Shown: positions 4,594 to 33,885 of the stretch, piece by piece
How positions within the stretch are numbered: position 1 is the stretch's first letter
Layout: each line of letters begins with the position of its first letter
Assembly: GCA_015490715.1 (NCBI GenBank)
Contig: WFXH01000094.1
Coordinates: 1-41,001, forward strand
Length of the DNA: 41,001 nucleotides
DNA from: Saprospiraceae bacterium
Lineage (GTDB): Bacteria > Bacteroidota > Bacteroidia > Chitinophagales > Saprospiraceae
Direction: 5' to 3'
The notes under the pieces: model-generated
Seen by the model: only the letters and a program-made list of their open reading frames with translations
Database searches by the model: none
Told to the model about the DNA's origin: nothing
Translations under genes and position numbers: made by a program

Positions 4594-4614
4594 GGACCGA
4601 GATTTAATTCGATG

Positions 4615-9318: not shown

Positions 9319-9375
9319 GGCATTACAAGTTTAAAACGTTCATGGGATTCATTGCCATCTTATATTTAGACGTAT

Positions 9376-9396: not shown

Positions 9397-9634
9397 CAAC
9401 GCCTTGAAAAAATATTCAAGCAAGTTTGATATATAAAAAAGCTCCGTAATACGACGATTGTATACAAAAATGCTCCTTGTGTAAAACGCACAGCCCTTGA
9501 AAGGAGGCGTATTCAGGCGTTCGGCAATGGTACAGCAAACAGATTGGCGGCTTCATAGGAGTTAACGCACTCCTGGCTTTGGTATTGTCTCTGTAGAGAT
9601 CGTTTTGAAAAAATTTTTTCATTTTTCTACGGTA

Positions 9635-9645
9635 TATGAAATGGT
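9635..9645 (+). repeat. Interspersed word TATGAAATGGT, copy 2
   Basis: Exact copy in the gap upstream of gltX, 26 nt before the proposed -33 element. Confidence 0.7.
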
Positions 9646-9670
9646 CGATCGGATACGTAGGCAACCAAGC

Positions 9671-9700
9671 TTGGTAGCCGCAAATTGTGTCGTACCTTTG
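9671..9700 (+). promoter_or_regulatory. Promoter of gltX (Bacteroidota type)
   Basis: TTGG at 9671-9674, an 18-nt spacer and TACCTTTG at 9693-9700 match the Bacteroidota -33/-7 pattern (TTTG, then TAnnTTTG). This leaves a leader of roughly 85 nt before the gltX ATG. Confidence 0.6.
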
Positions 9701-9743
9701 CGCGTAAAGCATATGATCACAGCTATACGCATGAATAACAGTG

Positions 9744-9751
9744 CAAAGATA
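9744..9751 (-). promoter_or_regulatory. Possible - strand -7 element in the gltX leader
   Basis: CAAAGATA on the + strand reads TATCTTTG on the - strand, a fit to TAnnTTTG pointing away from gltX. No good -33 element is visible at the right spacing. It could drive the deacetylase gene through a long leader or a separate RNA. Confidence 0.3.
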
Positions 9752-9791
9752 CGGAAAGTCTCAAACATATTAGGAAAAATTTTAATGTGAT

Positions 9792-11336: not shown

Positions 11337-11348
11337 TAAAATGCCGCA

Positions 11349-13100: not shown

Positions 13101-13237
13101 GTGCGTACATCGATGCTTATCCGTATAAACGCCTGTCTGCCGTGGCAAGTTCGCCAAAGGTTTTATACCAAAACATTGAAAGAATTCTTACAGGCGGCCT
13201 TGGCGCTATTACAGTCCAAGGAGGAGGGATGTTTCCC

Positions 13238-15259
13238 TTATGTTGAGGTGGGAGATTGGGATGGGCATGGGGTAGTGCGGATGCCCAGCTGGGCGAAGTG
13301 TTTTCGCTTTCGTATGAAATAGTTGACGATGAGCAATTGGTGATATCGGCCGATGCGGGATCGGTCGGGACCAATGCGTAGGGCGTGGATGTTCTTTCTA
13401 CTCTGTTGTCTCTTCTTCCATAGCTTGCGCAGGTGGTATACGATTTGTGCGTGTGCGGTGAGTACGGCGCGGGCATGAGAAAATTCACCCTTTGTCGCAA
13501 AGAAGAGGAGCGCTATGTAGTCGAGGGCTAAGCGCAAGGGCGCTTTCCAGAGGAGGGCCGCGAGGGGTGTATTTTTTATCAAGCTGGCCAGGCTGTTGCG
13601 GAAGTTGAAGAGGGTCTTGGTGGGGTGGGTGTAATTTAGTGTGCCACCGCCGAGGTGGTAGATGGTGGAGGAGGGCTCTACACAGATGGTATAGCCAGCG
13701 CGTTTGAGGCGCCAACACAGATCAATTTCTTCCTGATGGGCAAAAAACCACGGGTCAAAGCCACCAATTTTATGAAATAGTTCGGCACGGATGAGCATTG
13801 CTGCACCTGTTGCCCAGAATATTTCGATGGGGTCGTCGTATTGCCCTTTGTCTTCTTCGACGGTATCGAGTAAGCGGCCTCGGCAGAAGGGATATCCCAG
13901 TAGGTCGATCCATCCGCCGCAGGCCCCAGCGTATTCGAAGTGCGTCTTTTGGCGGTAGGAGCGCACCTTTGGTTGGACGGCAGCGACATTGGGAAATCGG
14001 TGGAGACGCTGGAGCAGAGGTGTGAGGATGTCGCAGTCGATGTAGACATCGGAGTTGAGGAGGAAATAGTATTCGGCATCGATGTGTTGGAGTCCGCGGT
14101 TGTAGCCCTCGGCAAAGCCGTAGTTTTTGTCGAGCGCTACGATTTCAACTTCGGGATGGTGTTTTCGGAGGTAGTCGAGGGATGTATCGGTGGAGCCGTT
14201 GTCGATCACGACGATGCGATAATGGCCGAGGTGTGCACAGACGGGGGGGAGGAAGGTCTTCAGATGTTGTAGACCATTGTAATTGAGGATCGCTATGGCT
14301 ACGGAGGTGTTTTTTCGCGATACGGGATGTTGTTGGAAATAGTGCATGACTTGATCTCTATCGCGGGCGATGGCGCGTTTTAGCTGGTTGAGGGAGTCGA
14401 ATTTTTCGTCTGGTCGTATGAAATGGTGAAACTCGATGCGGATGGTTTTCTGATAGAGGTCACCTTCGAAGTCGAAGAGGTGGATTTCGACGACGCGTTG
14501 GTCGTTGTTATCCAGGGTGGGGCGCACTCCTATGTAGAGCATACCTGTGTACGAGCACTCATCGACGGAGGCACGGACGGCGTAGATGCCGTCGGCGGGA
14601 ATGAGTTTGTAGGGATAGGAGATGTCGATATTGGCTGTGGGAAAGCCGAGCTGTCTGCCGAGGCGCATGCCTTTGACGACGGTGCCTTCCATGGTATAGG
14701 GGTATCCCAAAAGCGCATTGGCCGTGTGCACATCGCCACGGAGGAGCGCTCGGCGAATGGTGGTACTGTTCACCACGGTGTTGTCCATGCGGTATGGAGG
14801 GAACTCTTCTACGTCGAATGCGCCTTTTTCGGCGTAGGTGTTGAGCAATGCGATATCTCCTCGACGGCCGGCACCGAAGCGGTGGTCGTAACCCACTAGT
14901 ATTTTGGAGGGATGAAAGAAGCGGATGAGGAAGTTTTCGATGTATTCTTCGGGTGATTGTTGGGCAAAGGCGTCGGTAAAGGGTACGACGACGAGGTAGT
15001 CGATCTCGGTAGATTGGAGGCGGCAGATTTTTTCCTCTTTGGTGGTGAGGAGGAACCGCGGTGGGGGTGTCGGAGAGAGGACGATGCGCGGGTGGGGTTC
15101 GAAGGTGATCGCTACAGAGGGTTGCTCTGCCTTTTGGGCGAGGTCCACAAGGCGGTGCATTAATGCCTGGTGGCCTCGATGGATGCCGTCAAAAGCTCCT
15201 ACGGTAATAAGGGGGCGTCCGGGGATTGCGACATCGCGGAGTGATTCGATGACCTTCAT
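13238..15259 (-). CDS. ribF: Fusion: riboflavin kinase/FAD synthetase + family 2 glycosyltransferase
   Basis: A single 673-codon frame with two complete enzymes. Residues 1-310 are RibF, which phosphorylates riboflavin to FMN and adenylylates FMN to FAD: GAFDGIHRGH at 21-30 (nucleotidyltransferase), STTIRRALLRG at 165-175, and the kinase motif LGFPTAN at 204-210. Residues about 317-600 are a GT2 glycosyltransferase: AIAILNYNG at 321-329, VIDNGSTD at 351-358, NYGFAEGYNRG at 379-389, LLNSDVYID at 400-408 and the EEIDLCWRLKRAGY block at 510-523. The join has no stop. An internal ATG at 14347 (codon 305) could produce the transferase alone. The end of the protein is basic and shows no clear membrane anchor. 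Each domain is certain; whether the product stays joined in the cell is not known. Confidence 0.92.
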   Translation of the reverse strand: MKVIESLRDVAIPGRPLITVGAFDGIHRGHQALMHRLVDLAQKAEQPSVAITFEPHPRIVLSPTPPPRFLLTTKEEKICRLQSTEIDYLVVVPFTDAFAQQSPEEYIENFLIRFFHPSKILVGYDHRFGAGRRGDIALLNTYAEKGAFDVEEFPPYRMDNTVVNSTTIRRALLRGDVHTANALLGYPYTMEGTVVKGMRLGRQLGFPTANIDISYPYKLIPADGIYAVRASVDECSYTGMLYIGVRPTLDNNDQRVVEIHLFDFEGDLYQKTIRIEFHHFIRPDEKFDSLNQLKRAIARDRDQVMHYFQQHPVSRKNTSVAIAILNYNGLQHLKTFLPPVCAHLGHYRIVVIDNGSTDTSLDYLRKHHPEVEIVALDKNYGFAEGYNRGLQHIDAEYYFLLNSDVYIDCDILTPLLQRLHRFPNVAAVQPKVRSYRQKTHFEYAGACGGWIDLLGYPFCRGRLLDTVEEDKGQYDDPIEIFWATGAAMLIRAELFHKIGGFDPWFFAHQEEIDLCWRLKRAGYTICVEPSSTIYHLGGGTLNYTHPTKTLFNFRNSLASLIKNTPLAALLWKAPLRLALDYIALLFFATKGEFSHARAVLTAHAQIVYHLRKLWKKRQQSRKNIHALRIGPDRSRIGRYHQLLIVNYFIRKRKHFAQLGIRTTPCPSQSPTST
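13313..13323 (+). repeat. Interspersed word, TATGAAATAGT variant
   Basis: Lies in the 3' part of the ribF fusion gene, where the other strand encodes YFIR. It continues as TG, like the copy at 36219. Confidence 0.45.
13771..13781 (+). repeat. Interspersed word, TATGAAATAGT variant
   Basis: Lies in the transferase half of the fusion gene and is read in a different frame (LFHK) from the copies at 13313 and 14417. Confidence 0.45.
14417..14427 (+). repeat. Interspersed word TATGAAATGGT, copy 3
   Basis: Exact copy, preceded by G, in the RibF half of the fusion gene, where the other strand encodes HHFIR. Confidence 0.6.
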
Positions 15260-21974: not shown

Positions 21975-24110
21975 ATGTGTTGCAACTCCATGTCGGATCA
22001 GAGGCTGTTCGTCCATGTGTATGGGGGTATACTTGTAGCGGTCTTAGCGTTGTTGTCTGGTGTACAATCTCAGCTGCCGCCCTATCCGCATACGCCGGAG
22101 CGTCCGGACTGCGATACTCTTCATAATGTAGTAGTTTGTGATCCCTACAGGTGGCTGGAGGATCTCGATCATCCCGAGGTCGAACGCTGGGTAGAGGCAC
22201 AGCGACAATATGCGCGCAATTACCTCGACGCGATCCCGTGGCGGGAGGCCTTGCGCGACACACTCCGCGTGATGTTGCAGGCCGATGTGCCGTTGGTACC
22301 GTATTGGGTGCAAGGTACGCTCTATTACACGCTTGCCAAGGCCAATTTAAACCAACCCATTTTAGTACGCTATAATCCGAAAGGGCATCGGGAGGAGGTA
22401 CTTATTGATCCCAATCAATGGTCGGATGATGGGACGGTATCGCTGATGTCGTTGCATTTCGACAGAGATGGCCGTTATCTGGCCTATCAAGTAGCTCATT
22501 CTGGATCGGATTGGCGCGTTGTGCGAGTGATGGATTTACACACTAACGAGGTGCTCGACGATAGCTTGACAGATGTTAAATTTTCAAATATTGCTTGGTC
22601 GAAAGACGGCTTTTACTACAGCCGTTTTATTGGGGGAGAGGGGCAGAGGGGTACTTTTTCGGAGTTGCGCCGTCAAGCGATCTACTACCACAAGATAGGC
22701 ACGTCCCAGTTGGAGGATCAGCGCATCTACCTCCCCCGTGCAGTGCGTACCTACGTACAGGCCCATGTCACCGACGATGGGCGATGGCTCATTGTGCACG
22801 AGATGCGTACTACATCGGGCAATCGCGTACTGGTCAAGCGCAACCACACGCAGGATACGATTCGCTACCTCGTAAGCCACGACGACAAGCGCTACCAATG
22901 GATCGGTATAGTAGGCGATACCTTCCTCTACCGCACCAATGATGGATTTGTCAATTATGGGGTAGTGGGGCTGTATTTTGACTCCAGCGGAGAGGTGAGG
23001 CGGAAGGTTTTTATCCCTGAGCGGAACGAGGCCCTCACCAACGCCTGGTGGTTTGATGGCATTTTTGTGCTCCACTATTTAAAGGATGCCAAGAGCCATG
23101 TAGTGATACGTGATGCGGAGAGGGAGCGAGCGATGCCGTTGCCGGGCCCAGGTACGGTACGCCATGTGCGTTGGGCAAAGGACGAGCGTGCCCTCTACTA
23201 CGTGTACACCTCCTTTATTCATCCCAACGCGATTTATCGGTATAAAATGGTGGACCACAAGAGCGAGGTCTACCTTTCGTCCCATCTACCATTTCATACG
23301 GAAGACTACATTACAGAGGAGTATTGGTATCCGAGTCACGATGGTACGCGCATACACGTGTTTGTGAGCCGTCATAAGGAAGTGGATATAACCGAGCCGC
23401 AGCCGGTCTTGCTCTATGGATATGGGGGATTTAACATTCCCATTACGCCTTCCTTTAGTGTGGAGCGGGCGGCGTGGATGCGTGGTGGGGGTGTCTATGT
23501 TGTGGCCAATTTGCGCGGGGGTGGAGAATACGGTGAGGCATGGCATCGACAGGGGACGAAGAGCCAAAAGCAAAACGTGTTTTACGATTTTCAATGGGCG
23601 GCGCAGTGGCTGATCGACACGGGATGGACGAGCAGTGATTTACTTGCCATCGAAGGGCGGTCGAATGGAGGCTTGTTGATAGGGGCATGTATCACCCAAC
23701 GTCCCGATTTGTATCGCGTGGCAGTACCCGTCGTGGGAGTCCTCGACATGTTGCGCTATCATCTCTTTACGATTGGCTGGGCCTGGGCTTCCGATTATGG
23801 GATCAGTACCAGGGCTTCGGATTTTTCGTACTTACGTCGATATTCGCCTGTGCACAATGTCGTTGATGCACACTATCCGTCGACGCTCATCATGACTGCC
23901 GATCACGATGATCGCGTGGTGCCGTCGCACTCTTATAAATTTGCTGCCCAGTTGCAAAAACACCAGCGGGCATCTCGCCCCGTCTTGCTTCGAGTCGAAC
24001 ACGGTGCGGGTCATGGTGCCGGTAGGTCGAAAGCACAACATCTGGCCGAGATGACCGATAAATTGGCATTTATTTGGTATGAAATGGGGCGACGTCCCCA
24101 ATGGAGATAG
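21975..24110 (+). CDS. Prolyl oligopeptidase family serine peptidase (S9A)
   Basis: A secreted or periplasmic peptidase that cuts short peptides, usually after proline. An N-terminal signal (LFVHVYGGILVAVLALLSGVQSQ) precedes the PPYPHTPERPD and DPYRWLEDLDHPEVERWV segments typical of S9A. A beta-propeller spans the middle. The C-terminal alpha/beta-hydrolase carries the triad: Ser in EGRSNGGLL near 563, Asp in DHDDRVVP near 645, and His in EHGAGHGAG near 676; RGGGEYGEAWH forms the expected oxyanion region. The 711-residue length is normal. ATG 21975 or ATG 21990 could be the start; both keep the signal peptide. cdaA begins 16 nt after the stop. Confidence 0.94.
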   Translation: MCCNSMSDQRLFVHVYGGILVAVLALLSGVQSQLPPYPHTPERPDCDTLHNVVVCDPYRWLEDLDHPEVERWVEAQRQYARNYLDAIPWREALRDTLRVMLQADVPLVPYWVQGTLYYTLAKANLNQPILVRYNPKGHREEVLIDPNQWSDDGTVSLMSLHFDRDGRYLAYQVAHSGSDWRVVRVMDLHTNEVLDDSLTDVKFSNIAWSKDGFYYSRFIGGEGQRGTFSELRRQAIYYHKIGTSQLEDQRIYLPRAVRTYVQAHVTDDGRWLIVHEMRTTSGNRVLVKRNHTQDTIRYLVSHDDKRYQWIGIVGDTFLYRTNDGFVNYGVVGLYFDSSGEVRRKVFIPERNEALTNAWWFDGIFVLHYLKDAKSHVVIRDAERERAMPLPGPGTVRHVRWAKDERALYYVYTSFIHPNAIYRYKMVDHKSEVYLSSHLPFHTEDYITEEYWYPSHDGTRIHVFVSRHKEVDITEPQPVLLYGYGGFNIPITPSFSVERAAWMRGGGVYVVANLRGGGEYGEAWHRQGTKSQKQNVFYDFQWAAQWLIDTGWTSSDLLAIEGRSNGGLLIGACITQRPDLYRVAVPVVGVLDMLRYHLFTIGWAWASDYGISTRASDFSYLRRYSPVHNVVDAHYPSTLIMTADHDDRVVPSHSYKFAAQLQKHQRASRPVLLRVEHGAGHGAGRSKAQHLAEMTDKLAFIWYEMGRRPQWR
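23288..23298 (-). repeat. Interspersed word TATGAAATGGT, copy 4
   Basis: Exact copy on the - strand (ACCATTTCATA on +), inside the S9A gene where it encodes LPFHT. Confidence 0.6.
24078..24088 (+). repeat. Near copy of the interspersed word (TATGAAATGGG)
   Basis: One mismatch at the last base; at the 3' end of the S9A gene, where it encodes WYEMG. Confidence 0.35.
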
Positions 24111-24126
24111 GATAAGAAAAGGATCC

Positions 24127-24963
24127 ATGACGACCTACCAGGTGCTCATACGATTTGTCGACTATTTGATCGTAGCGCTATTGATTTACTACTTGTATCG
24201 CTTGTTGCGGGGCACGCGCGCGTTTAATATCTTCCTGGGGCTCTTGTTGATCTATTTTTTGGGATGGTTGGTGCGATGGCTCGACATGCGATTGCTTTCT
24301 ACCATTTTAGAGCAGTTTCTCAACATCGGAGTCATTGTGATAGTGATCATCTTTCAGCCTGAGATTCGGCGCTTTCTCCTCATTTTGGGCAAAAATGCCT
24401 ATGATCGGCGCCTCAAGAAGCTTGCGTCCATCTTTAATTATCGAGAGGGCGAGCTTTTGACGCGCGAAGAAATCGGTGAGATTGTCGATGGAGTGCGCGC
24501 GATGAGTCGCCAGAAGCTCGGTGCTCTAATCATCATCCTCAAAGACGAAAGTCAGCTGGTATTCGATACGGGGGTAGACATCGATGCCTTCATACGGAGG
24601 GATCTATTGCTCGCTATCTTTGACAAGGATAGTCCCTTACACGATGGAGCAGTGACGATTTATGCCCACCGCATTCAAAAAGCACGCGTAATTTTACCCA
24701 TTAGCAGACGAGAGAAATTGCCATCGGTATTGGGCTTGCGCCATCGCGCAGCCATGGGTATTACGGAAAGCGTCGATTGCCTAGCGATCATTGTATCGGA
24801 AGAAAACGGGAAGATTTCGCTCTCGCGCGAAGGCAATATCGAGTACGATGTGTCGATCGAAAAGCTCGAGCAGGTGCTCCATGAAGAATTTGTCGAGCCC
24901 CTCAGCTCTCACGCCAATGGCGATTGGACACGTCGCTTTAAGTTTCCTACTCCACAACGCTAA
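24127..24963 (+). CDS. cdaA: Diadenylate cyclase (c-di-AMP synthase)
   Basis: Makes cyclic di-AMP from two ATP at the inner membrane. Three transmembrane helices at about residues 10-27, 33-50 and 62-78 precede a DisA_N domain with both catalytic motifs: DGA in SPLHDGAVTIY near 172 and RHR in LGLRHRAAMG near 204. The 278-residue length matches CdaA/YbbP. The frame is open upstream to 24079, inside the peptidase gene, but ATG 24127 (MTTYQVLIRF) starts just before the first helix. No cdaR or glmM gene is next to it, unlike in Firmicutes. Its TAA shares the bases CTAA with the stop of the convergent symporter gene. Confidence 0.95.
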   Translation: MTTYQVLIRFVDYLIVALLIYYLYRLLRGTRAFNIFLGLLLIYFLGWLVRWLDMRLLSTILEQFLNIGVIVIVIIFQPEIRRFLLILGKNAYDRRLKKLASIFNYREGELLTREEIGEIVDGVRAMSRQKLGALIIILKDESQLVFDTGVDIDAFIRRDLLLAIFDKDSPLHDGAVTIYAHRIQKARVILPISRREKLPSVLGLRHRAAMGITESVDCLAIIVSEENGKISLSREGNIEYDVSIEKLEQVLHEEFVEPLSSHANGDWTRRFKFPTPQR

Positions 24964-26438
24964 GGGCGTATCTTCGACGTCGAGATGAGCCACAGACCGA
25001 TAAAGGTCAACAAACCATTGAGGGCAATGATGGTAAAGCCAAAGCGAAAGCCTCCGAGCAAAGTCTCCGAATAGGAGTCAATCAAATAAGACAGCACAGG
25101 GGCGGCAATGACGACGAGGGGAATCCATCGATCGCGCACGGGATTGTGCATCAGCATGCCAAAGCTGAACATCCCAAGCAGAGGGCCGTAGGTGTACCCT
25201 GCTACGCGAAACAGGCTGTTGATGACAGCATCGTCGTTGATCCAATAGTACAGTAAAATGATGGCGAAGAGCAAGCTCGCAAAGGCCGCGTGTACGCGTT
25301 TTCGGATTTGGGTCTTTTGTTGCTCCGTCTTGGTCACATCCGACGGTAGGCGCAGTATGTCGATGCAAAAGGAAGTCGTCAGGGCAGTCAGCGCACTATC
25401 TGCACTGGAGTAAGCGGCCGCTATGAGTCCAATGATAAAGGAAAGGCCAATGGCGGGACTCAAGTACTTTAAGGCGAGCAAAGGATAGAGCTCGTCGGTG
25501 CGGTTGGGAATCTCAATACCGTTATTCCACGCATAGATGTAGAGTAGGCCACCCAGGCTCAAGAATACCATTTTCACCACAAAGAGGACTGCAGCGAAGA
25601 GGGTCATGTTTTTCTGTGCATCGCCGATATTGGGGCAACTGAGGTTTTTTTGCATCATATCCTGATCCAGCCCTGTCATGACGATGGCGATGAGTGCCCC
25701 GGAGATGAATTGTTTGTAAAAATTGTTGGGATCCGACCAGCCGTTGTCGAAAAAAAACCACTGAGCGAGATCGTATTCCCTCAACAGTCGCGGAATGTCC
25801 AACCATCCGGCGTCGAGGGTATGTAAGATAGCTCCAATCGTCAGAACGACTGCGGTGAGCATGCTGACCGTCTGCAGGGTGTCGGTCCATACGATGGTCT
25901 TAATGCCTCCTCGATAGGTATAGGTCAGTATTAATAAAATCGTAATGGCCACTGTATGCCAAAACTCCAGACCCATGGGGCCCGTCACAAACCGATCCAA
26001 TACGAGGGCCACCAGAAAAAGCCGAAAGGCGGCGCCGATCGTGCGCGAAAGCAGAAAGTAAAATGCCCCCCACAGGTACGCATTGTTGCCAAAGCGCTGG
26101 CCGAGATACTCGTAGATCGAAGTGAGATTGCGGCGATAGTACATGGGCATGAGCACAAAGGCGATGACAGCGTACCCCACCATGTATCCCATGACCATTT
26201 GCATATACGAAAACTTCATATTGGGACCTTCCGTTCCCACTACACCAGGTATGGAGATAAAAGTCACCCCAGAAAGAGTCGTACCGATCATGCCAATGGC
26301 GACCAATAGCCAGGGGGATTTTCTGCTGCCGATGTAAAAATCTGCATTGGTTGCCGATCGACCTGTCCAATGGGACAATATCATCAGCAATCCAAAATAG
26401 AGGGCTACGACTATGAGTATGTGGATCGGTTCGAGCAT
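24960..26438 (-). CDS. Sodium:solute symporter family protein
   Basis: A 492-residue inner-membrane transporter of the SSS family, with about 13 hydrophobic helices. Family features include the N-terminal hydrophobic helix followed by the TNADFYIGSRKSPW segment, GTTLSGVTFISIPG (second helix, sodium-site region), IYEYLGQRFGN, and IAAAYSSADSALTALTTSF near 340-358, equivalent to the conserved helix 8 that contributes to the sodium site. The substrate (sugar, sialic acid, amino acid or other) cannot be decided. The gene is divergent from the first DUF1800 gene, with which it shares an unusual symmetrical promoter region. Confidence 0.9.
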   Translation of the reverse strand: MLEPIHILIVVALYFGLLMILSHWTGRSATNADFYIGSRKSPWLLVAIGMIGTTLSGVTFISIPGVVGTEGPNMKFSYMQMVMGYMVGYAVIAFVLMPMYYRRNLTSIYEYLGQRFGNNAYLWGAFYFLLSRTIGAAFRLFLVALVLDRFVTGPMGLEFWHTVAITILLILTYTYRGGIKTIVWTDTLQTVSMLTAVVLTIGAILHTLDAGWLDIPRLLREYDLAQWFFFDNGWSDPNNFYKQFISGALIAIVMTGLDQDMMQKNLSCPNIGDAQKNMTLFAAVLFVVKMVFLSLGGLLYIYAWNNGIEIPNRTDELYPLLALKYLSPAIGLSFIIGLIAAAYSSADSALTALTTSFCIDILRLPSDVTKTEQQKTQIRKRVHAAFASLLFAIILLYYWINDDAVINSLFRVAGYTYGPLLGMFSFGMLMHNPVRDRWIPLVVIAAPVLSYLIDSYSETLLGGFRFGFTIIALNGLLTFIGLWLISTSKIRP

Positions 26439-26595: not shown

Positions 26596-28407
26596 ATGAA
26601 GGCAAAAGTGTTGTATATTTTATCATTTTGCCTCTGTGTTTCCCCATACCTACGGGGGCAGAAGTATCTGGGAGGAGGCCATGGACAAGTGCAGGCGGTC
26701 TACAGCAGTGATGAATGGGTGGAGCCGTATCCAGGTACTTTTGTGGCGAAGGCGGAAAACACCATCAACGGCCGTGGGCTCGATGCCAAGCTCATGGAAG
26801 CATCGAGGTTTTTATCTCAGGCTACCCTCGGATACGATATGGAAGTGGTCGAGGAGGTAGCCCAAAAGGGCATTGAGCAATGGTTAGAAGAGCAGTTTGA
26901 CCAGCCGCCCCCCAACATGCACGATTTAACACAGGAAATCTTCGAGATATCCAATGCCTACAGTGTAGAAGTAGGGGGCACGGACCCCGAGCGACTTCCT
27001 CAGAGGCCGTCGTATTACCACTTTCTCTACGCCTGGTGGGAATACAATGTCTTCAATCGGCGGGATATGCTGAGGCAGCGGGTGGCCGAGGCCTTGAGTG
27101 AAATCTTTGTCGTGTCGTACGAAGATGCCAAGCTGCGCGCTCGCGGCCTCTCACTGGCTGCCTACTGGGACATCTTGACGCGCAACGCCTTCGGCAATTT
27201 TTACGACCTGCTGCACGACATCACCTATAGCCCAACGATGGGATTGTATCTATCGCACTTCAACAACCCCAAGAGCGATCCTTCAAAGAATCGCCATCCC
27301 GACGAAAACTATGCGCGTGAAATCATGCAGCTCTTTACTATCGGGCTGTACGAGCTCAATATCGACGGCACGCGCAAGAAAGATGCGCAGGGCAACGACA
27401 TCCCCACCTACGACAACGACGACATAAAGGAGCTCGCCAAGGTCTTCACTGGGCTATCGGCATCGGAAGTGGTCGAAAATCCGTACTACGACACGGCGCG
27501 ATTTAATATCTATTGGGGATGGACGGACTTCTCAAAGCCGATGCGGATGTACGAGGAGTGGCACGAGCCGGGAGAAAAGCGTCTCTTCGGTGGCAAAGTG
27601 GTGATACCCGCCGGTCAGTCGGGCGATGAAGATATTGCCATGGCCCTTCAAGCGCTGTTTCAACATCCCAATGTGGGACCCTTCATCGCACGGCGGCTCA
27701 TCCAACGCCTGGTAAAATCCAATCCCACACCACAATACATCCGCGATGTGGCGGAGGTCTTCAACGACAACGGCCATGGGGTACGAGGCGATCTCAAAGC
27801 AGTCATACGCGCTATTCTCCTCCATCCTGAAGCGCGCGACTGTGCGTGGATGTATCATCCCACCAACGGAAAGTTGCGCGAGCCCTTGCTGCGCTATACC
27901 CATTTTGCCTTTGCTATGCCCAAAATTCATCCCTATGGCTATTACTGGAACGTGGGCACGGATTTCGGCGAACGCGTGGGCCAAAACATACTGGGGTCAC
28001 CTTCGGTATTCAACTTTTACAGCCCAGATTACGCGCCCTTAGGGCCCCTTCGAGATAGGGAGTATGTGGCTCCGGAGTTTCAGATACTCAACACGCGTAC
28101 GGTCATCGAATGGGGCAATTACGTCTACCAGTTTGTACACTGGGGCAACTTGCTGGACGATTGGACGAGCGTGCCGGCGCGCACCACCGTCGATCTGCGG
28201 CACCTGTACGACTATGCGCGGACGGGTGAGCCTCTCACCAATTACTTAGATATATTGTTTACTTACGGTGATTTGAGTGATCAGACGCGCAAGGTGTTGC
28301 GCGATATCTACGAAACACGCCGCCGCAGTGGTCATTTCGTCAGGGATCGCGTGCGCCTCGGTTTGTACCTCGTCTTGATTTCACCAGATTATCTGATCAA
28401 AAAGTAG
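26596..28407 (+). CDS. DUF1800 family protein, copy 1
   Basis: A 603-residue exported protein with a Sec signal peptide (KVLYILSFCLCVSPYLRGQ). After a variable stretch comes the DUF1800 body: SRFLSQATLGYD near 75, WLEEQF, FYHFLYAWWEYN, LRQRVAEALSEIFVVSY, NFYDLLHDITYSPTMG, the HPDENYAREIMQLFTIGLYELN block near 233, and GVRGDLKAVIRAILLHPEARD near 395. DUF1800 has no established biochemical role that I know of; these genes are typically next to a DUF1501 gene, as here (24 nt downstream). It ends without a T9SS sorting domain, so the product is predicted to stay in the periplasm or reach the surface another way. The closest relative in view is the second copy at 30653. Confidence 0.9.
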   Translation: MKAKVLYILSFCLCVSPYLRGQKYLGGGHGQVQAVYSSDEWVEPYPGTFVAKAENTINGRGLDAKLMEASRFLSQATLGYDMEVVEEVAQKGIEQWLEEQFDQPPPNMHDLTQEIFEISNAYSVEVGGTDPERLPQRPSYYHFLYAWWEYNVFNRRDMLRQRVAEALSEIFVVSYEDAKLRARGLSLAAYWDILTRNAFGNFYDLLHDITYSPTMGLYLSHFNNPKSDPSKNRHPDENYAREIMQLFTIGLYELNIDGTRKKDAQGNDIPTYDNDDIKELAKVFTGLSASEVVENPYYDTARFNIYWGWTDFSKPMRMYEEWHEPGEKRLFGGKVVIPAGQSGDEDIAMALQALFQHPNVGPFIARRLIQRLVKSNPTPQYIRDVAEVFNDNGHGVRGDLKAVIRAILLHPEARDCAWMYHPTNGKLREPLLRYTHFAFAMPKIHPYGYYWNVGTDFGERVGQNILGSPSVFNFYSPDYAPLGPLRDREYVAPEFQILNTRTVIEWGNYVYQFVHWGNLLDDWTSVPARTTVDLRHLYDYARTGEPLTNYLDILFTYGDLSDQTRKVLRDIYETRRRSGHFVRDRVRLGLYLVLISPDYLIKK

Positions 28408-28430
28408 TACCCCATCAAAGTATCGTTCCT

Positions 28431-29831
28431 ATGAAAAAGACATCGCGAAGGGAGTTTATGAAATGGTTGAGCGCGGTAGGGCTCGGCATGTCGACGTACA
28501 ACACATGGGGCAGTATGCGCATGCTCTCCATGACCAGTATGTGGAACAGTGCGACGTTTTACGACAACGACTACAAAGCCCTGGTCTGCCTCTTCCTCAG
28601 TGGGGGAAATGACTCGTACAACATGCTAGTACCGCTTGACAATCGCGCATACAATGATTATGCTACGACGCGGTCGGAGCTGGCGTTGGACAAGTCGAAG
28701 TTGTTAAAAATCAATCCCCTCAATACGCGGGGGAAGAAATACGGCCTGCATCCTTCGCTGCAAAACATGCAGCAGCTCTTTGAGAGCCGCCACCTCGCCT
28801 TTTTAGTCAACATCGGCGCGCTGATCCAGCCGACAGAGCCCGAAGAGGTGCGCAAAAAGAGTGTGCCCCTGCCCTTAGGACTCTTTTCTCACTCCGACCA
28901 ACAAAAACACTGGATGACCGCCATGCCCCACCGACGCACCTCAGTGGGGTGGGGAGGCCGCATTGCGGATCGCATGCGCGATGTCAATCCCGACAACTCC
29001 ATCTCGATGAACATCTCCATCAGTGGGTCCAACATCTTCCAGCAAGGCGAGTCCACCATTGAGTTTACCGTCTCACCTCGAGGCAACACTTTTGGTTATT
29101 ACAACTACGGAAAAGAAGATTACTGGCGCTACTATGTCGACTATTCACGCGGTATCGACAGTCTCTCGGAGGCCCGATATAACGATCTGTTTCGCGACAC
29201 TTATGCCGGCATCATGCGCAATGCACGCGATGCGTATATACTCTTTTCGGAGGCCTTGCATTCGATCGATCCCATAAGCACTGCCTTCCCCGAGAGCCGC
29301 TTGGGCGATGCCATGAAGCGCATCGTCGAGATCATCCAGTCCAACAAGGTGCTCGGCTTTCGCCGTCAGATCTTCTTCGTACGGATGGGAGGGTGGGACA
29401 ACCACGACGAATTGCTCAACAATCACGAAGATAACCTGCGCGTAGTCGACCAGGCAGTGGGTGCGTTTTGGCAGGCACTCGAGGAGATCAATGCTACGCA
29501 AAACGTCGTCTTGTTTAACATGACGGAGTTTGCGCGTACTCTGACCTCAAACGGTAACGGTACGGACCACGCCTGGGGAGGCAATGTCTTCGTACTCGGT
29601 GGGCCAGTGCGTGGGAAGCGCATTTATGGCGAGTATCCCTCCCTGGCACTGAAGGCCGACCGCATGATCTATCGTCAAGCCCTGGTGCCGACGCGCTCGA
29701 TCGACGAGTACTTTGCCGAATTGGCCAAGTGGTTTGGCATGCACGATTCCGATATCCATGAAATTTTCCCCAATTTGAGCAACTTCCACGAGATGCGTCG
29801 TGGGTTGCCTTTTGGATTTTTACAGGTGTAA
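28431..29831 (+). CDS. DUF1501 family protein, copy 1, with Tat signal
   Basis: A 466-residue protein of a family with a sulfatase/alkaline-phosphatase-like fold. The N-terminus SRREFMKWLSAVGLG is a good twin-arginine signal, so it is predicted to be exported folded, probably with a metal cofactor. Family motifs: FLSGGNDSYNML near 57-68, SHSDQQKHW near 160, GGWDNHDELLNNH near 320, and TEFARTLTSNGNGTDHAWGG near 365-384, which carries Asp and His residues likely to bind metal. The last ten residues (MRRGLPFGFLQV) match copy 2. Catalytic activity has not been assigned to this family as far as I know. The discoidin-like gene follows 12 nt later. Confidence 0.9.
   Translation: MKKTSRREFMKWLSAVGLGMSTYNTWGSMRMLSMTSMWNSATFYDNDYKALVCLFLSGGNDSYNMLVPLDNRAYNDYATTRSELALDKSKLLKINPLNTRGKKYGLHPSLQNMQQLFESRHLAFLVNIGALIQPTEPEEVRKKSVPLPLGLFSHSDQQKHWMTAMPHRRTSVGWGGRIADRMRDVNPDNSISMNISISGSNIFQQGESTIEFTVSPRGNTFGYYNYGKEDYWRYYVDYSRGIDSLSEARYNDLFRDTYAGIMRNARDAYILFSEALHSIDPISTAFPESRLGDAMKRIVEIIQSNKVLGFRRQIFFVRMGGWDNHDELLNNHEDNLRVVDQAVGAFWQALEEINATQNVVLFNMTEFARTLTSNGNGTDHAWGGNVFVLGGPVRGKRIYGEYPSLALKADRMIYRQALVPTRSIDEYFAELAKWFGMHDSDIHEIFPNLSNFHEMRRGLPFGFLQV
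28457..28467 (+). repeat. Interspersed word TATGAAATGGT, copy 5
   Basis: Exact copy in the Tat-signal codons (FMKW) of DUF1501 copy 1. It continues as TGAGCGCG and so shares 18 of 19 bases with the copy at 39063. Confidence 0.5.
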
Positions 29832-29843
29832 AAAAGATTTTCA

Positions 29844-30605
29844 ATGATGTGTCGCACAATTTTATGCTGGTACTTCACAGTTTTTTTGCTTCTCAGCAGT
29901 TTGAAGGTAGGGGCGCAGTGTTATCCCGATCGGCACAACACGACGTGGTTTGATGCGTGGATTTCGTGCCGCAAGGCTCCCAATCCCAATCCTCAACGCG
30001 ATAGCAGTCACTGGATACTGTACGATTTTGGCGAGCTGTATGAAATCAACAGCGTCCACTTTTGGAATCTCAATGCTCCCAATTTCGTCGATGATGGAGT
30101 GCGTCGTATGGCCATCGATGTGTCGCGCGACGGTATGGATTGGAGGGAAGTGGGCGTCTTTACGGTGGGGAAAGCTCCTGCCTTGAGTCGCTACGAAGGC
30201 GAAGACCTGCTGGATTTTCCCGTCGTGGTGGGCAGGTATGTCTTGATTACCGTTTTGGAGAGCTGGGGCGGAGCATGTGCGGGATTTAGTGAAATTCGCT
30301 TTGGTGTTGATTCCGTCATCACCACCGACGTCGACAACACGGCTCCGCAGGAGCAGCGACAATGGTATTTCGACATCACCCCCAACCCCTCTTCATCCAA
30401 TCCCGTGATGGTACGCGTCTATTACGCTCCTTCGGGGCAGTATACCGTTGAAGATGTGATGGGTAAGATCCTCACACAGGGCAAATGGGAAGGTGCACCA
30501 CCGGTGGTCGAAATTCCCATCGACCTACCGCCTCAAAGGGGAACGTTTGTCATCAAGCTGCACTCCGGCAAACATGTACAGAGTCGCTTGCTGATACGCC
30601 TCTAA
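29844..30605 (+). CDS. Secreted discoidin-like protein with T9SS C-terminal sorting domain
   Basis: A 253-residue exported protein. The signal peptide ends near LLLSSLKVGAQ. Residues about 25-150 look like an F5/8 type C (discoidin) beta-sandwich: WILYDFGELYEINSVHFWN, VRRMAIDVSRDGMDWREVG, then GRYVLITVLESWGGACAGFSEIRFG. Such domains usually bind sugars or lipids. Residues about 175-253 form a type A sorting domain for type IX secretion (FDITPNPSSSN, YTVEDVMGKIL, GTFVIKLHSGKHVQSRLLI), meaning export across the outer membrane. It sits between the two DUF1800-DUF1501 pairs on the same strand with gaps of 12 and 47 nt, so it is likely part of the same transcription unit. Confidence 0.85.
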   Translation: MMCRTILCWYFTVFLLLSSLKVGAQCYPDRHNTTWFDAWISCRKAPNPNPQRDSSHWILYDFGELYEINSVHFWNLNAPNFVDDGVRRMAIDVSRDGMDWREVGVFTVGKAPALSRYEGEDLLDFPVVVGRYVLITVLESWGGACAGFSEIRFGVDSVITTDVDNTAPQEQRQWYFDITPNPSSSNPVMVRVYYAPSGQYTVEDVMGKILTQGKWEGAPPVVEIPIDLPPQRGTFVIKLHSGKHVQSRLLIRL

Positions 30606-30622
30606 GCTCAACGATTTCATAC
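30606..30622 (-). repeat. Long copy of the interspersed word (17 nt, C variant)
   Basis: On the - strand this reads GTATGAAATCGTTGAGC, identical over all 17 bases to 39062-39078. It lies in the 47-nt gap between the discoidin-like gene and DUF1800 copy 2. Confidence 0.6.
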
Positions 30623-30652
30623 AAGTCATAGAAAAAACAAACAAGCCGAAGA

Positions 30653-32467
30653 ATGGATAAATGGGTGTTCATTATTGTGTTGTTGGTGGGATGCCTTTCC
30701 GATGGGTTCTCCCAGGGGCGCACTATTGGTGCGGGATCAAACTATCGGGGCGTGCGCGTGCTGGCCAGCGATAGCTATGCCTACTACTCCGACAGCCTGT
30801 ACGTGGCGGCACCGATCCACACGATCGACGGACACGGCATGGATGGTCGCCTTGCGGAAGCTGCGCGATTGCTCAGTCAGGCGAGCTTGGGATATGACCT
30901 AAAGATGATCCATCAAGTAGCCGATATGGGCATCGAGGCGTGGATTGAAGACCAATTTGAAAAAGAGCCCCCTGATTTTATCCAATTGACGCGCGAAGCC
31001 TACGACGCCGAAGTGGCCTACATGCTCGGAGTGGGTGGGGTGGATTCCTCTGAGCTGCCCGATGACATCTATTTTTATCACTTCCTCTATGCGTGGTGGC
31101 AGTATCAGGCTTTTAATGCCCATGATGTGTTGCGACAGCGAGTGGCGGAGGCCTTGAGTGAAATCTTTGTCGTGTCCTATTTCAACGATCGGCTGAGTAG
31201 TCGAGGTCTCGGGCTGGCATATTATTACAACCTGCTCTTGAAAAACGCCTTTGGCAATTTTTACGATCTCTTGCGAGATATCACCTATAGCCCGGCCATG
31301 GGCATGTATCTATCGCATTTTCAAAATCCCCGTACGATACCTGAGGAAAACCAGCATCCCGACGAGAATTATGCGCGTGAAATCATGCAGCTCTTTACCA
31401 TAGGACTTTATGAACTCAATCCCGACGGCACGCGCAAGAAAGATGCCCAGGGGCGCGATATACCGACCTACGACAACGACGACATTTCCGAGCTGGCCAA
31501 GGTGTTTACGGGATTGGGGGCATCGGCTATTATCGACAATCCCTATGTGGATACGCCGAGCTGGGACATCTGGTGGGGCTGGGTCGATTTTACGCAGCCC
31601 ATGCGCATGTATGAAGATTGGCATGAGCCTGGAGAGAAACGGCTTTTCGGAGGCAAAGTCGTCATACCTGCAGGGCAAACCGGCGATGAAGACATTGCCA
31701 TGGCCTTGCGCGCATTGGTTGATCATCCCAATGTGGGTCCTTTTATCGCTCGTAGGCTTATTCAGCGCCTGGTCAAATCCAATCCCACGCCGGAGTATAT
31801 CCGCGATGTGGCTGCCGTGTTTGACGACAACGGCCATGGGGTGCGAGGGGATATGAAGGCCGTCATTCGCGCGATTTTACTTCATCCCGAAGCGCGAGAG
31901 TGCCAGTGGATAGAGCATCCCTCTGCCGGCAAATTGCGCGAACCACTCTTGCGCTATGTACACGTGGTACGCGCCCTACCCAAAGATCACCCTTACGACC
32001 TGTATTGGAACGTGGGATATACCTACGGTACGGAAGTGGGACAAAACATGTTTGGTGCACCCAGCGTGTTCAACTTTTACAAGCCCGATTTTGTGCCCAA
32101 CGGTGTATTGCAAGAGCGAGGCCTCTTCGGGCCGGAGTACGAAATCCATCACACGCAATCCTCTATTGAGTGGATCAATCGCGTCTTCATCTGGACGCAT
32201 TGGGAGTCGTTAATGTGGGATTGGACACCTATAGAAGCTTCGACTACTGCAGATTTCTATAAGCTATACGGTTTGGCGCGCATGGGAGAGCCGTTTATCA
32301 ACTATTGCGATCTCGTCTTTGCGCGAGGGATGATGAGCGACCAGACGAGGCAGTTGATTAGAGACGCCTTTCGCACTTTACAGACGACGACTTCTTACAA
32401 AGAGGACCGCGTCCGCCTTGCGCTGTTTTTGACGCTTATTTCACCAGATTTTACTGTTTTAAAATAA
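30653..32467 (+). CDS. DUF1800 family protein, copy 2
   Basis: A 604-residue paralog of the gene at 26596, in near-perfect register with it: the HPDENYAREIMQLFTIGLYELN block lies at about 232 here and 233 there. Across about 165 residues of the central region I count roughly 25 differences, while the first 60 residues and the C-terminal third (GLFGPEYEIHHTQSSIEWI) diverge more. A Sec signal peptide (WVFIIVLLVGCLSDGFSQ) is present and no sorting domain. The final motif LISPD is shared by both copies. The next gene starts 2 nt after the stop, so translation is probably coupled. Family function unknown. Confidence 0.9.
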   Translation: MDKWVFIIVLLVGCLSDGFSQGRTIGAGSNYRGVRVLASDSYAYYSDSLYVAAPIHTIDGHGMDGRLAEAARLLSQASLGYDLKMIHQVADMGIEAWIEDQFEKEPPDFIQLTREAYDAEVAYMLGVGGVDSSELPDDIYFYHFLYAWWQYQAFNAHDVLRQRVAEALSEIFVVSYFNDRLSSRGLGLAYYYNLLLKNAFGNFYDLLRDITYSPAMGMYLSHFQNPRTIPEENQHPDENYAREIMQLFTIGLYELNPDGTRKKDAQGRDIPTYDNDDISELAKVFTGLGASAIIDNPYVDTPSWDIWWGWVDFTQPMRMYEDWHEPGEKRLFGGKVVIPAGQTGDEDIAMALRALVDHPNVGPFIARRLIQRLVKSNPTPEYIRDVAAVFDDNGHGVRGDMKAVIRAILLHPEARECQWIEHPSAGKLREPLLRYVHVVRALPKDHPYDLYWNVGYTYGTEVGQNMFGAPSVFNFYKPDFVPNGVLQERGLFGPEYEIHHTQSSIEWINRVFIWTHWESLMWDWTPIEASTTADFYKLYGLARMGEPFINYCDLVFARGMMSDQTRQLIRDAFRTLQTTTSYKEDRVRLALFLTLISPDFTVLK

Positions 32468-32469
32468 GC

Positions 32470-33885
32470 TTGGCCGTGGATAAAAATCGAAAAATTGCAC
32501 GCAGGAAGTTTATCAAGTACCTGAGCAGCCTGGGGCTCGGCATCAGTACCTCCAATGCGCTGGGGGGGCTGCATCTGCTTCAGCATCACGGATTTTACAA
32601 CAATGCGGTCTATTACGACGGCAATTACAAGGCGCTCATATGTATCTATCTCAGTGGAGGCAATGATTCGTTTAACATGCTCGTACCTCTGGAGGCGAAG
32701 GCGTATGCCGATTATGCGTCCACGCGTTCGGAGCTTGCGATCGATCGCACGCGCCTTCTGCCGATTCGGCCGCTCAACACCAATGGCAGGGAATACGGCT
32801 TACATCCGGCGATGAAAAATATCCAGCGCCTTTTCGAGAGTGAGCAGCTCGCCTTTGTGGTCAATATCGGCACCCTCATACAGCCGACGACGCCGGAAGA
32901 AGTGCTCACAGAATCGGTGCCGCTGCCGCTGGGATTGTTTTCGCACTCCGACCAGACCCACCAGTGGATGACGGGTTGGCCCCACGAGCGCACATTAAAG
33001 GGGTGGGGAGGTAAAATAGCCGATCGGATGCAGAGTCTGAATCCCTCTGGAGAAATTTCGATGAACATTTCCCTCAGCGGCACCAATGTCTTCCAACAGG
33101 GGCACCACACCATTGAGTTTTCCGTCAGTGTCGATGACGAGTTGCTCGGGATTATCAATTACGGCATGGAAGATTATTCGATCTATTGGTCGGAGTACAC
33201 GCGAGGGATCGACTCGACGTTGGAGCGCCATTATGCGCATCCCTTTGATAGGGCTTATGTCGAAGTGCTTCGCAAGGCGCGCGATGCATATCGGGATTTT
33301 AATGCGGCCATGCAACAGGTTGGTCCTTTGCAGACTCCCTTTGAAGACGACGAGCTCAGCAAGGCGATGCGTCGCATAGTTCAAATCATTAAGGCCAATC
33401 AGTACTTGGGCTTTCAGCGACAAATCTACTTTGTCGAAGCTCCGGGCTGGGACAATCACGACGAACTGTTGAACAACCACGCCGAACTACTCGAAAACCT
33501 CGATACCGCTGTAGGATCGCTTTGGGACGGCCTGGTCGAGATAGGTGCGCAGGATCAGGTGGTGGTGTTTGTGATGACGGAGTTTGCGCGCACGCTCACG
33601 TCCAATGGCAACGGCACCGACCACGCATGGGGGGGCAATGTCTTTGTACTTGGTGGACAGGTGCGAGGACGCCGCTTTTACGGGGAGTATCCCGACCTGT
33701 CGCTGGGGGCGGATCGCATGATCTATCGCCAGGCCCTCGTGCCCACGCTTGCCACGGATCTCTACTTTGCCGAGCTCGCTCGCTGGTTTGGCTTGCACAA
33801 TTCCGATATCCACGAGATCTTTCCCAATTTGAGCAACTTTCACTCGATGTCGCAGGGCATGCCCTTGGGATTTTTGCCGGGGTGA
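32470..33885 (+). CDS. DUF1501 family protein, copy 2, with Tat-like signal
   Basis: A 471-residue paralog of the gene at 28431. There is no ATG near the start; TTG 32470 or GTG 32476 begins the protein ahead of ARRKFIKYLSSLGLG, a twin-arginine-like signal. The same motifs appear in order: YLSGGNDSFNML, SHSDQTHQWM, PGWDNHDELLNNH, and TEFARTLTSNGNGTDHAWGGNVFVLGG (first 20 residues identical to copy 1). Differences are concentrated in the middle (about 220-310). This is the last gene of the 7.3-kb + strand block, and no clear terminator follows before the convergent yqgE gene 90 nt away. Confidence 0.9.
   Translation: MAVDKNRKIARRKFIKYLSSLGLGISTSNALGGLHLLQHHGFYNNAVYYDGNYKALICIYLSGGNDSFNMLVPLEAKAYADYASTRSELAIDRTRLLPIRPLNTNGREYGLHPAMKNIQRLFESEQLAFVVNIGTLIQPTTPEEVLTESVPLPLGLFSHSDQTHQWMTGWPHERTLKGWGGKIADRMQSLNPSGEISMNISLSGTNVFQQGHHTIEFSVSVDDELLGIINYGMEDYSIYWSEYTRGIDSTLERHYAHPFDRAYVEVLRKARDAYRDFNAAMQQVGPLQTPFEDDELSKAMRRIVQIIKANQYLGFQRQIYFVEAPGWDNHDELLNNHAELLENLDTAVGSLWDGLVEIGAQDQVVVFVMTEFARTLTSNGNGTDHAWGGNVFVLGGQVRGRRFYGEYPDLSLGADRMIYRQALVPTLATDLYFAELARWFGLHNSDIHEIFPNLSNFHSMSQGMPLGFLPG

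Follow-up and report, generated by a model that had tools for sequence, protein, structure and literature searches.

Among the general DUF1800-DUF1501 gene pairs are ones that adjoin bacterial chitin synthases, and a twin-arginine motif on DUF1501 has been noted in the accessible part of that work (PMC5122149). The available excerpts of the literature mention the two families in the context of gene neighbourhoods, catalogues or expression, and no description of their function was found in those excerpts (PMC5122149, PMC4452313, PMC4960237, PMC6653060, PMC2754498, PMC5615132). Equally, proteins of the so-called planctomycete-specific cytochrome module PSCyt1-PSCyt2-PSD1 (DUF1549/DUF1553) may, according to an excerpted source, bear an F5/8C domain (PMC5615132). 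With respect to export, Tat hitchhiker complexes such as PaoABC are described, as a signal-less partner beside a Tat-bearing one (PMC4273604), and a Sec-type signal is said to be universal for T9SS effectors (PMC10202324, PMC12618676). In the literature examined, neither a Tat-to-T9SS route nor the export of a hetero-complex as T9SS cargo was found reported, nor was the passage of a partner without a tail through this system.

Here, five genes from a Saprospiraceae bacterium are analysed, located on a stretch of 41,001 nucleotides (contig WFXH01000094.1, positions 1 to 41,001), hereafter the window. DUF1800, DUF1501 and a discoidin protein, termed D, keep company across Bacteroidota and seem to form a single module destined for the cell surface. 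What is new here is the sorting pattern, with the predicted T9SS tail located on many of the long DUF1501 encoded without D and, in the cassettes, on D.

Organization of the locus

The preliminary description recognized two DUF1800-DUF1501 pairs on one strand and in the same order around one discoidin protein, a layout on which gene calls and profiles agree (Table 1). PF08811 scores 277.9 and 280.7 bits for the two DUF1800 (curated cut-off 26.1), PF07394 114.5 and 125.9 bits for the two DUF1501 (curated cut-off 27) and the F5/8C profile 32.7 bits for D (cut-off 28.2). The genes are separated, in order, by 23, 12, 47 and 2 bp. Promoter and terminator scans gave no excess over shuffled sequences (7 found versus 7.4 expected and 10 found versus 7.9 expected). 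The listed start of DUF1501-B is a TTG; a GTG at 32476 aligns with the ATG of the sister species and may be the true start.

Table 1. Features of the five-gene locus (positions in the window)
Feature	Position	Strand	Properties
DUF1800-A	26596-28407	+	603 aa; PF08811 E 2.3e-82; Sec-type signal peptide; without T9SS tail
DUF1501-A	28431-29831	+	466 aa; PF07394 E 8.3e-33; Tat-like signal R6 R7 F9; without T9SS tail
D, discoidin protein	29844-30605	+	253 aa; F5_F8_type_C PF00754 E 9.6e-8; Sec-type signal
D: F5/8C domain	residues 50-142, nt 29991-30269	+	PF00754
D: weak T9SS type A tail	residues 178-248, nt 30375-30587	+	TIGR04183 E 0.028
DUF1800-B	30653-32467	+	604 aa; PF08811 E 3.1e-83; duplicate of DUF1800-A
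DUF1501-B	32470-33885	+	471 aa; PF07394 E 2.9e-36; Tat-like signal ARRKF; duplicate of DUF1501-A

Linkage of D with the enzyme pair

D had been proposed to be tied to the pair, a proposal that D genes located away from the pair in relatives would contradict. Across 60 related genomes, 35 D homologues were counted, of which 33 adjoin the pair and two lie near contig ends (37 rows before G049:C47 and G018:C28 were dropped as tail-only matches). D comes first in 5 of the 33 linked loci, so linkage is kept in both gene orders. A survey of how often such a binding protein is encoded beside the pair had also been suggested; D lies at most three ORFs from a cassette-type DUF1800 in 52 of 58 loci from Bacteroidota and in the single Chlorobiota locus (1/1), compared with 0/20 in four other phyla; L232, which has no DUF1800 ORF of its own, was left out. 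The T9SS occurs in Chlorobi, and this distribution thus confines D to groups in which the T9SS occurs. A wider phylum sample (296 genomes, E<=1e-10) contained D in five further genomes, with DUF1501 adjoining D in two and a flank too short in three. Judged from this conservation of neighbourhood, D is no chance neighbour but the third gene of a standard DUF1800, DUF1501 and D cassette. The initial picture of a duplicated module enclosing D holds insofar as two pairs flank D, but is recast with D as the third cassette gene around which a duplicate pair has been placed.

Domain fusions extend this association. In locus L201, a D-type discoidin domain (D profile E 8e-34) is fused to the N-terminus of DUF1800, without a tail and on a contig that stops after DUF1501. 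Other DUF1800 proteins are fused to another F5/8C domain (L206) or to PA14/PKD (L228), and some relatives of D possess CBM_4_9, PA14 or fn3 domains. A sugar or lipid, as previously suggested, would be a plausible ligand of D, made likelier by these domains in D relatives and by the F5/8C or PA14 domains fused to some DUF1800.

Location of the T9SS tail

The D protein of the window had been described to carry a type IX sorting domain. Its own tail is weak, with 14.4 bits for TIGR04183 below the cut-off of 23, and at E<=0.001 the genome yields 48 tail matches, none of which is D. Across 19 aligned D proteins, that of the window among them, TIGR04183 matches 16 at E<=0.05 and PF18962 matches 14 at E<=0.01; a hydrophobicity test assigns a Sec-type start to all 19. 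Long DUF1501 proteins encoded without D possess the tail themselves in 15 of 24 cases by TIGR04183 (E<=0.01; the other nine have no match at this threshold) and in 7/24 by PF18962, and a rescan with a profile built from D tails alone again yielded 15/24. The tail counts of 15/24 and 0/16 are not population frequencies, because the 40 extra DUF1501 stretches were picked by open-frame length among the matches listed. Of 36 tail proteins, five with an open 5' end were dropped from the counts, and a motif-only tail test (D 10/19, long DUF1501 5/24) was too strict. One long DUF1501 with a Tat-like start and a T9SS tail is encoded in the same genome as the window. With the tail on D in cassettes and on many long DUF1501 in pairs without D, the pattern suggests that the enzyme might be delivered to the outside either by a tail of its own on DUF1501, in cis, or by that of D, in trans.

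It is unlikely, on the other hand, that only D leaves the cell, with DUF1800 and DUF1501 as periplasmic proteins that modify or load D as a substrate or act on an envelope glycan subsequently bound by D. Such an arrangement agrees with the lack of a T9SS tail in all 61 cassette-type DUF1800 and all 21 DUF1501 beside D (0/21 also with the profile from D tails only) and with the approximately two to four times faster evolution of D (dN/dS 0.118 versus 0.031-0.057 for the pair genes), as a substrate or adhesin might display. It accords poorly with the fusion of a D-type domain to DUF1800 in L201 and with the tail-bearing long DUF1501, as the tail marks the enzyme as meant for the outside in those pairs.

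Tat and Sec signals

Tat-like starts were recognized by our own test, which combines the motif RRx[FLM] with an uncharged h-region, in all 69 cassette-type DUF1501, in 23 of 24 long DUF1501 without D and in 14/16 of a further set, compared with 7 of 572 background ORFs; TatC is encoded in the genome. These counts rest on this motif-plus-hydrophobicity test, since curated Tat profiles match few of the proteins (PF10518 1/21 cassette DUF1501; TIGR01409 3/24 long DUF1501; DUF1501-A versus Pfam TAT_signal E 0.059). General-class DUF1800 encoded beside a Tat-like DUF1501 is mostly without signal, with an h-region value >=1.8 in 2/38 (both TTG upstream extensions) and >=1.5 in 4/38. Plasmid-borne pairs served as an outside check (9 of 53 matching records examined). 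Among six readable intact pairs, DUF1800 is without signal in five, with Phyllobacterium as the exception, and DUF1501 is Tat-like in five, with Miltoncostaea failing the test; the unannotated Persicobacter pair was taken from ORFs, and Thermus (IS982 interrupts DUF1800), Cupriavidus and Novosphingobium (unannotated, unclear ORF call) were left out. A signal-poor DUF1800 beside a Tat-like DUF1501 suggests that, in pairs without D, DUF1800 might ride DUF1501 through Tat.

The same signal-less state of general-class DUF1800 would be expected of a dedicated maturation chaperone of DUF1501, similar to the Tat redox-enzyme chaperones and not itself part of the enzyme. This role is improbable, because a cytoplasmic chaperone requires neither the hydrophobic, Sec-type start present in 71 of 78 cassette-type DUF1800 nor the extracellular-type F5/8C, PA14 and PKD domains fused to some DUF1800.

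Fold and conserved residues

A sulfatase/phosphatase-like fold had been assigned to DUF1501, in line with its AlphaFold model (pLDDT 88), for which NPP phosphodiesterases are the highest-scoring PDB chains (Z 18.7 to 7cba with rmsd 3.5 over 250 aligned residues; 18.5 to 7mw8; Z>=8 for 488 of 1000 chains). Foldseek retrieves a choline sulfatase (E 7.4e-6), and one short-class DUF1501 matches Sulfatase PF00884 (E 0.0011). Candidate active-site residues of DUF1501-A are D61, S153, H154, D323, H325, E366, D379 and H380. At the level of the alignment, equivalents of D61, H154, D323, H325, D379 and H380 are present in 109/109 sequences and the serine before the histidine in 108/109; this D/H residue set is of a metal type, and DUF1501 may bind metal as proposed. 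No residue that matches AlkP H412 was identified in DUF1501. DUF1501 models as an enzyme of the alkaline phosphatase superfamily with a conserved D/H residue set.

For the DUF1800 model (pLDDT 90.5), Foldseek found no PDB match at E<=0.001 (best 1.8) and VIA-align none with Z>=2 among 438 chains, a result from which neither a new fold nor a distinction of the modelled protein from any family follows. Searches by phmmer or profile retrieved no PDB relative of DUF1800 and no meaningful one of DUF1501; a PSD1 protein matched PDB sequences only at E>=0.37.

Duplication of the pair and its age

Copies A and B are identical at 365/599 positions (61%) in DUF1800 and 289/463 (62%) in DUF1501. The approximately 25 differences in 165 residues reported for the DUF1800 proteins correspond to the best 165-column stretch, with 140 identical and 25 differing residues. 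Divergence of N-terminal and middle regions had equally been pointed out, and these are indeed the most diverged parts, with 11/50 identical at the start of the DUF1800 alignment (columns 1-50) and 19/50 in columns 251-300 of DUF1501. DUF1800-A, DUF1800-B and the B copy of the sister species constitute one clade (SH-aLRT 97), as do the DUF1501 copies A and B including those of the sister species (SH-aLRT 99); the sister species holds orthologues of both DUF1501 copies, D and DUF1800-B. By these phylogenies, the second pair arose by a duplication specific to this lineage and before the split from the sister species. A recent duplication is ruled out by the difference of A and B at 38-39% of residues, dS values of 1.6-2.3 with synonymous sites near saturation and the orthologues in the sister species. 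Four genes can be compared between the two species (both DUF1501, D and DUF1800-B), and their dN/dS values of 0.031-0.118 indicate purifying selection. The preliminary description had preferred two specialized versions over a recent duplication; trees and dS agree that the event is not recent, and as to specialization the sequence displays only the retention of both copies. That the second pair is a mere product of dosage or drift without a new role, with D linked by operon inheritance only, is hardly probable: the lineage-specific origin of the duplication and the inability of sequence to reveal a functional A/B difference would suit it, but D linkage survives in both gene orders, dN/dS is low in all four comparable genes and enlarged clusters arise in other lineages as well (L233, L234, L175, L176, L223).

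Proposed function of the cassette

We favour, with modest confidence, the interpretation that the five genes represent one surface-directed enzyme cassette of DUF1800, DUF1501 and D with a duplicated enzyme pair, in which D takes the pair outside or holds it there. DUF1501 would most likely be a metal-dependent enzyme, a hydrolase or transferase with a phosphate or sulfate ester as its substrate, and would fold in the cytoplasm before leaving by Tat. DUF1800 would be its regular, mostly helical partner, with a predicted Sec-type signal of its own in the cassette subtype. With a putatively glycan-binding discoidin domain and a predicted type IX sorting tail on the same protein, D could bring the pair to the outer cell face or keep it there, a role in trans that would equal the role of the DUF1501 tail in cis where D is absent.

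A more far-reaching proposal, which we put forward only tentatively, is that two proteins cross both membranes together as a folded enzyme, the signal-less DUF1800 riding on DUF1501 through Tat and the complex subsequently passing the T9SS by the tail of DUF1501 or D. Under this two-step export, D would serve as an exchangeable adaptor for sorting and glycan binding. If the combination of Tat and T9SS signals is read correctly, the rule of Sec entry for every T9SS effector fails for a whole family, and the cargo of the T9SS may include complexes that are already folded and loaded with cofactor. The tails, fusions and signals point to a probable site of action of DUF1800-DUF1501 and to its probable enzyme component, whereby the question becomes testable.

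Comparison with known systems

The general DUF1800-DUF1501 pairs consist of the same two families as the cassette and have, within the accessible part of their description, the twin-arginine DUF1501 in common with it. They differ by the absence of D, a DUF1800 mostly without signal and a tail on DUF1501 in 15/24 long Bacteroidota proteins.

The PSCyt1-PSCyt2-PSD1 module resembles the cassette in that DUF1501 is the next gene downstream in 4/4 loci read, a carbohydrate-binding domain can be present (Laminin_G_3 in 1/2 scanned) and 12 relatives of D contain a CxxCH domain with a weak likeness to PSCyt1. Pfam PSCyt1 matches 3/7 scanned D relatives with CxxCH or CxxxCH, always below the cut-off (15.0-17.3 versus 22), with a clear heme motif. 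The module differs by its other partner protein and by the D of the window, which lacks CxxCH; none of PSCyt1, PSCyt2 and PSD1 matches the window proteins at E<=1, and PSD1 is unmatched in the whole genome. Comparison of DUF1800 with PSD1 by hhalign gave probabilities of 0.7-3.8% for the first profile pairs and 18-35% for deeper alignments, with a score of 41.1 versus a mean of 16.7 and a maximum of 26.2 for 120 column-shuffled controls; among the real profiles used as controls, four in all, the D alignment scored 34.5 and a second one 29.1. Homology of DUF1800 and PSD1 is only suggested and serves as a lead only. The parallel with this PSCyt/PSD1-DUF1501 module, known from PVC bacteria, suggests that many unexplained genes share a general enzyme design.

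With the NPP and sulfatase branches of the alkaline phosphatase superfamily, DUF1501 shares the predicted fold and apparently the conserved D/H residues, while identity is about 10%, the D-x-H spacing differs and DUF1501 is known from sequence and model. The general-class pair, with a signal-less DUF1800 beside a Tat-like DUF1501, appears to resemble PaoABC-type hitchhikers as far as the excerpted source describes them, but a second, outer-membrane step is implied here and the DUF1800 of the window has its own signal. Finally, D is comparable to established type IX cargo, with the Sec-type start and, weakly in the copy of the window, the type A tail that reviews require, whereas the long DUF1501 resemble such cargo by their tail (15/24), yet break the stated Sec definition by a Tat-like start (23/24), a combination for which reviews do not allow (PMC10202324, PMC12618676).

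The locus and its gene order

D, a discoidin (F5/8C) protein with a weakly matching type IX secretion (T9SS) type A C-terminal sorting domain, and the DUF1800-DUF1501 pair constitute a genuine cassette of three conserved parts, whose enzyme pair underwent an old duplication at this locus; the cassette is a novel form of a gene pair that is known but unexplained. In the 2.45 Mb genome, distributed over 115 contigs of which the window is one complete contig (C94), the five genes DUF1800-A, DUF1501-A, D, DUF1800-B and DUF1501-B are separated by gaps of 23, 12, 47 and 2 bp, and all five products score above the Pfam cut-off for their families. Two more DUF1800-DUF1501 pairs, of another subtype, are located on contigs C45 and C80.

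Coordinates of the cassette genes and of further features in the window and in stretches from relatives (L-numbers)
Stretch	Positions	Strand	Feature
Window	152-3493		1113-aa protein, nine FG-GAP_3 stretches and a UnbV_ASPIC domain
Window	24079-24963		CdaA-type diadenylate cyclase gene, just upstream of cassette
Window	24960-26438		Sodium:solute symporter, just upstream of cassette
Window	26596-28407	+	DUF1800-A
Window	28431-29831	+	DUF1501-A
Window	29844-30605	+	D
Window	30653-32467	+	DUF1800-B
Window	32470-33885	+	DUF1501-B
L119 (contig C80, window's genome)	7882-9444		DUF1501
L233 (Emticicia sp. BO119, different family)	3535-13454		Five-gene layout matching that of the window
L350 (Thermus thermophilus plasmid)	1000-3005		DUF1800 gene split by IS982 transposase, DUF1501 adjoining

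Linkage of D to the pair

Homologues of D were searched in 60 related genomes, giving 37 rows; two matching the tail only were set aside, while 35, from 18 of the 60 genomes (the window's counted), match the discoidin part. The preliminary description had linked D to the pair, and the occurrence of D away from the pair in relatives, which would speak against it, was not encountered: 33 of the 35 rows directly adjoin DUF1501 or DUF1800, and the other two are at or near contig ends, L143 running off its contig end and L144 lying 1.2 kb from one, with one other ORF between. The usual order is DUF1800-DUF1501-D, with D first in five loci; genes beyond these three vary between loci, as judged by eye.

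In a second set of 80 loci, retrieved by the DUF1800 profile and overlapping in part with the 60-genome set, D was at most three ORFs away for 52 of the 58 loci from Bacteroidota and for the only one from Chlorobiota, a MAG with a DUF1800 that is placed close to those of Flavobacteriaceae. Within the same distance, D was found in none of the 20 loci of Pseudomonadota (9), Verrucomicrobiota (8), Chloroflexota (2) and Lentisphaerota (1). Among the six Bacteroidota loci without a separate D, L160, L187, L202 and L206 stop at a contig end or at most 1 kb from it, L225 begins within the DUF1800 gene, and L201 carries a D-type discoidin domain fused to the DUF1800 N-terminus (D profile, E 8e-34). 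In L206, an F5/8C domain that the D profile did not find is fused to DUF1800. The DUF1800 of L228 (Lentisphaeria) contains five PA14 stretches plus PKD.

History of the two copies

In quick trees of 82 DUF1800 and 88 DUF1501 rows, assessed by SH-aLRT support only, A and B fall together in a single clade (97 for DUF1800, 99 for DUF1501), the nearest outside row being the single-copy cassette L158 from another Saprospiraceae genome. In the sister species G001, DUF1501-A, D, DUF1800-B and DUF1501-B have orthologues in conserved order; its contig begins 323 bp before DUF1501-A, hence a DUF1800-A is not visible there. The duplication of the pair therefore involved both genes together and took place within this lineage, earlier than the split of the two species. 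The low dN/dS between them (DUF1501-A 0.031, D 0.118, DUF1800-B 0.043, DUF1501-B 0.057) indicates purifying selection on the four genes seen in both. The copies are 61% (DUF1800) and 62% (DUF1501) identical, and the 25 differences reported earlier over 165 central DUF1800 residues are exact for the best stretch of that length; judged from sequence, the two pairs might possibly be specialised. In Emticicia L233, the order is DUF1800-DUF1501-D-DUF1800-DUF1501, the first DUF1800 being read as two ORFs, and enlarged clusters of other forms occur in L234, L175, L176 and L223.

DUF1501 as a candidate enzyme

The DUF1501-A model (pLDDT 88, pTM 0.85, 69-sequence alignment), with sulfatases as top Foldseek hits (E 7.4e-6) and NPP phosphodiesterases as top VIA-align hits (Z 18.7, rmsd 3.5, 250 residues), matches the alkaline phosphatase superfamily; in one short-class DUF1501, Sulfatase PF00884 is matched by sequence (E 0.0011). 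All 109 sequences compared, from three DUF1501 classes, have equivalents of D61, H154, D323, H325, D379 and H380, and 108 of them also keep the serine preceding H154. By analogy with the ligand positions of AlkP/NPP, these residues and the serine are likely candidate metal ligands and nucleophile. DUF1800-A is confidently modelled as mostly helical (pLDDT 90.5).

Export signals and tails

By our own motif-plus-hydrophobicity criterion, a Tat-like start is present in 69/69 cassette-type DUF1501 versus 7/572 background ORFs; in these proteins, curated Tat profiles detect far fewer such starts (PF10518 in 1/21 cassette DUF1501). TatC is present in the window's genome. Sec-type hydrophobic starts characterise 71 of 78 cassette-type DUF1800 and all 19 D, and the T9SS tail is found on D (TIGR04183 16/19, E<=0.05; PF18962 14/19, E<=0.01), the match in the window's D being weak (E 0.028). 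The 21 cassette DUF1501 and 61 DUF1800 searched gave no tail match.

For comparison, 40 further stretches from relatives, picked by open-frame length among the DUF1501 matches listed, were read together with the C45 and C80 pairs, and D was found in none of them. The 40 DUF1501 comprise a short class (n=16, mostly ~400 aa), which includes the C45 protein, truncated by its contig end, and a long class (n=24, mostly 510-550 aa). In this length-picked sample, tails occur on long-class DUF1501 (TIGR04183 15/24, PF18962 7/24, a profile built from D tails alone 15/24) and on 0/16 short-class proteins, with Tat-like starts in 23/24 and 14/16, respectively. Ahead of the RR motif, many long DUF1501 of L275-L295 have a Met-Cys start and a stretch of ~25-35 residues containing His and Asp. 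The 38 DUF1800 of this set mostly start inside the domain without a signal peptide: two, both via TTG upstream extensions, reach the signal threshold of 1.8 and four that of 1.5 (cytosolic controls 0/12 and 1/12), and none of the 38 has a tail. Across the sets covered, tails were located on DUF1501 or on D but not on the two together. The C80 DUF1501 combines a Tat-like start with a T9SS type A tail, the sole Tat-test pass among 31 tail proteins with readable start (36 of the genome's 48 tail matches read); the tail protein L328 has an RR pair and failed the test.

Proposed export route and relation to known systems

Most simply, the pair would act as a unit outside the inner membrane. In the general class without D, DUF1800, for the most part observed to lack a signal, would be carried through Tat by DUF1501, a co-export that we infer; in Bacteroidota, a tail would then direct the unit outside, acting in cis where DUF1501 carries it and in trans where D does. 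The ride of DUF1800 through Tat does not apply to the window, because both its DUF1800 have their own Sec-type start. According to the review PMC10202324 and to PMC12618676, every T9SS effector has a Sec signal, with which PMC5445135 and PMC9251779 agree. In the partly covered literature on Tat with T9SS, or on DUF1800/DUF1501 with Tat or hitchhiker export, no recognisable description of this route was found; the cis/trans tail placement and the combination of Tat and T9SS signals are surprising and directly testable.

The planctomycete cytochrome module PSCyt1-PSCyt2-PSD1 shares the partner DUF1501 with DUF1800: in relatives, DUF1501 comes after the PSCyt1-PSCyt2-PSD1 protein in 4/4 loci read, and one of the two such proteins scanned has a Laminin_G_3 domain. 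PSCyt-PSD1-type genes have been described in PMC5615132 to adjoin two unknown families and to occur with CBM and F5/8C domains. A heme-binding CxxCH domain, weakly resembling PSCyt1, follows the discoidin part in twelve D relatives (L136, L137, L140, L142, L144, L153, L199, L200, L203, L205, L215, L229), and a thirteenth, L134, has the variant CxxxCH; if the T9SS tail works, these proteins would place a cytochrome on the surface. DUF1501 as common partner and the CxxCH domain in D relatives suggest a single design behind both DUF1800 with D and PSCyt-PSD1, and DUF1800 and PSD1 may be directly homologous.
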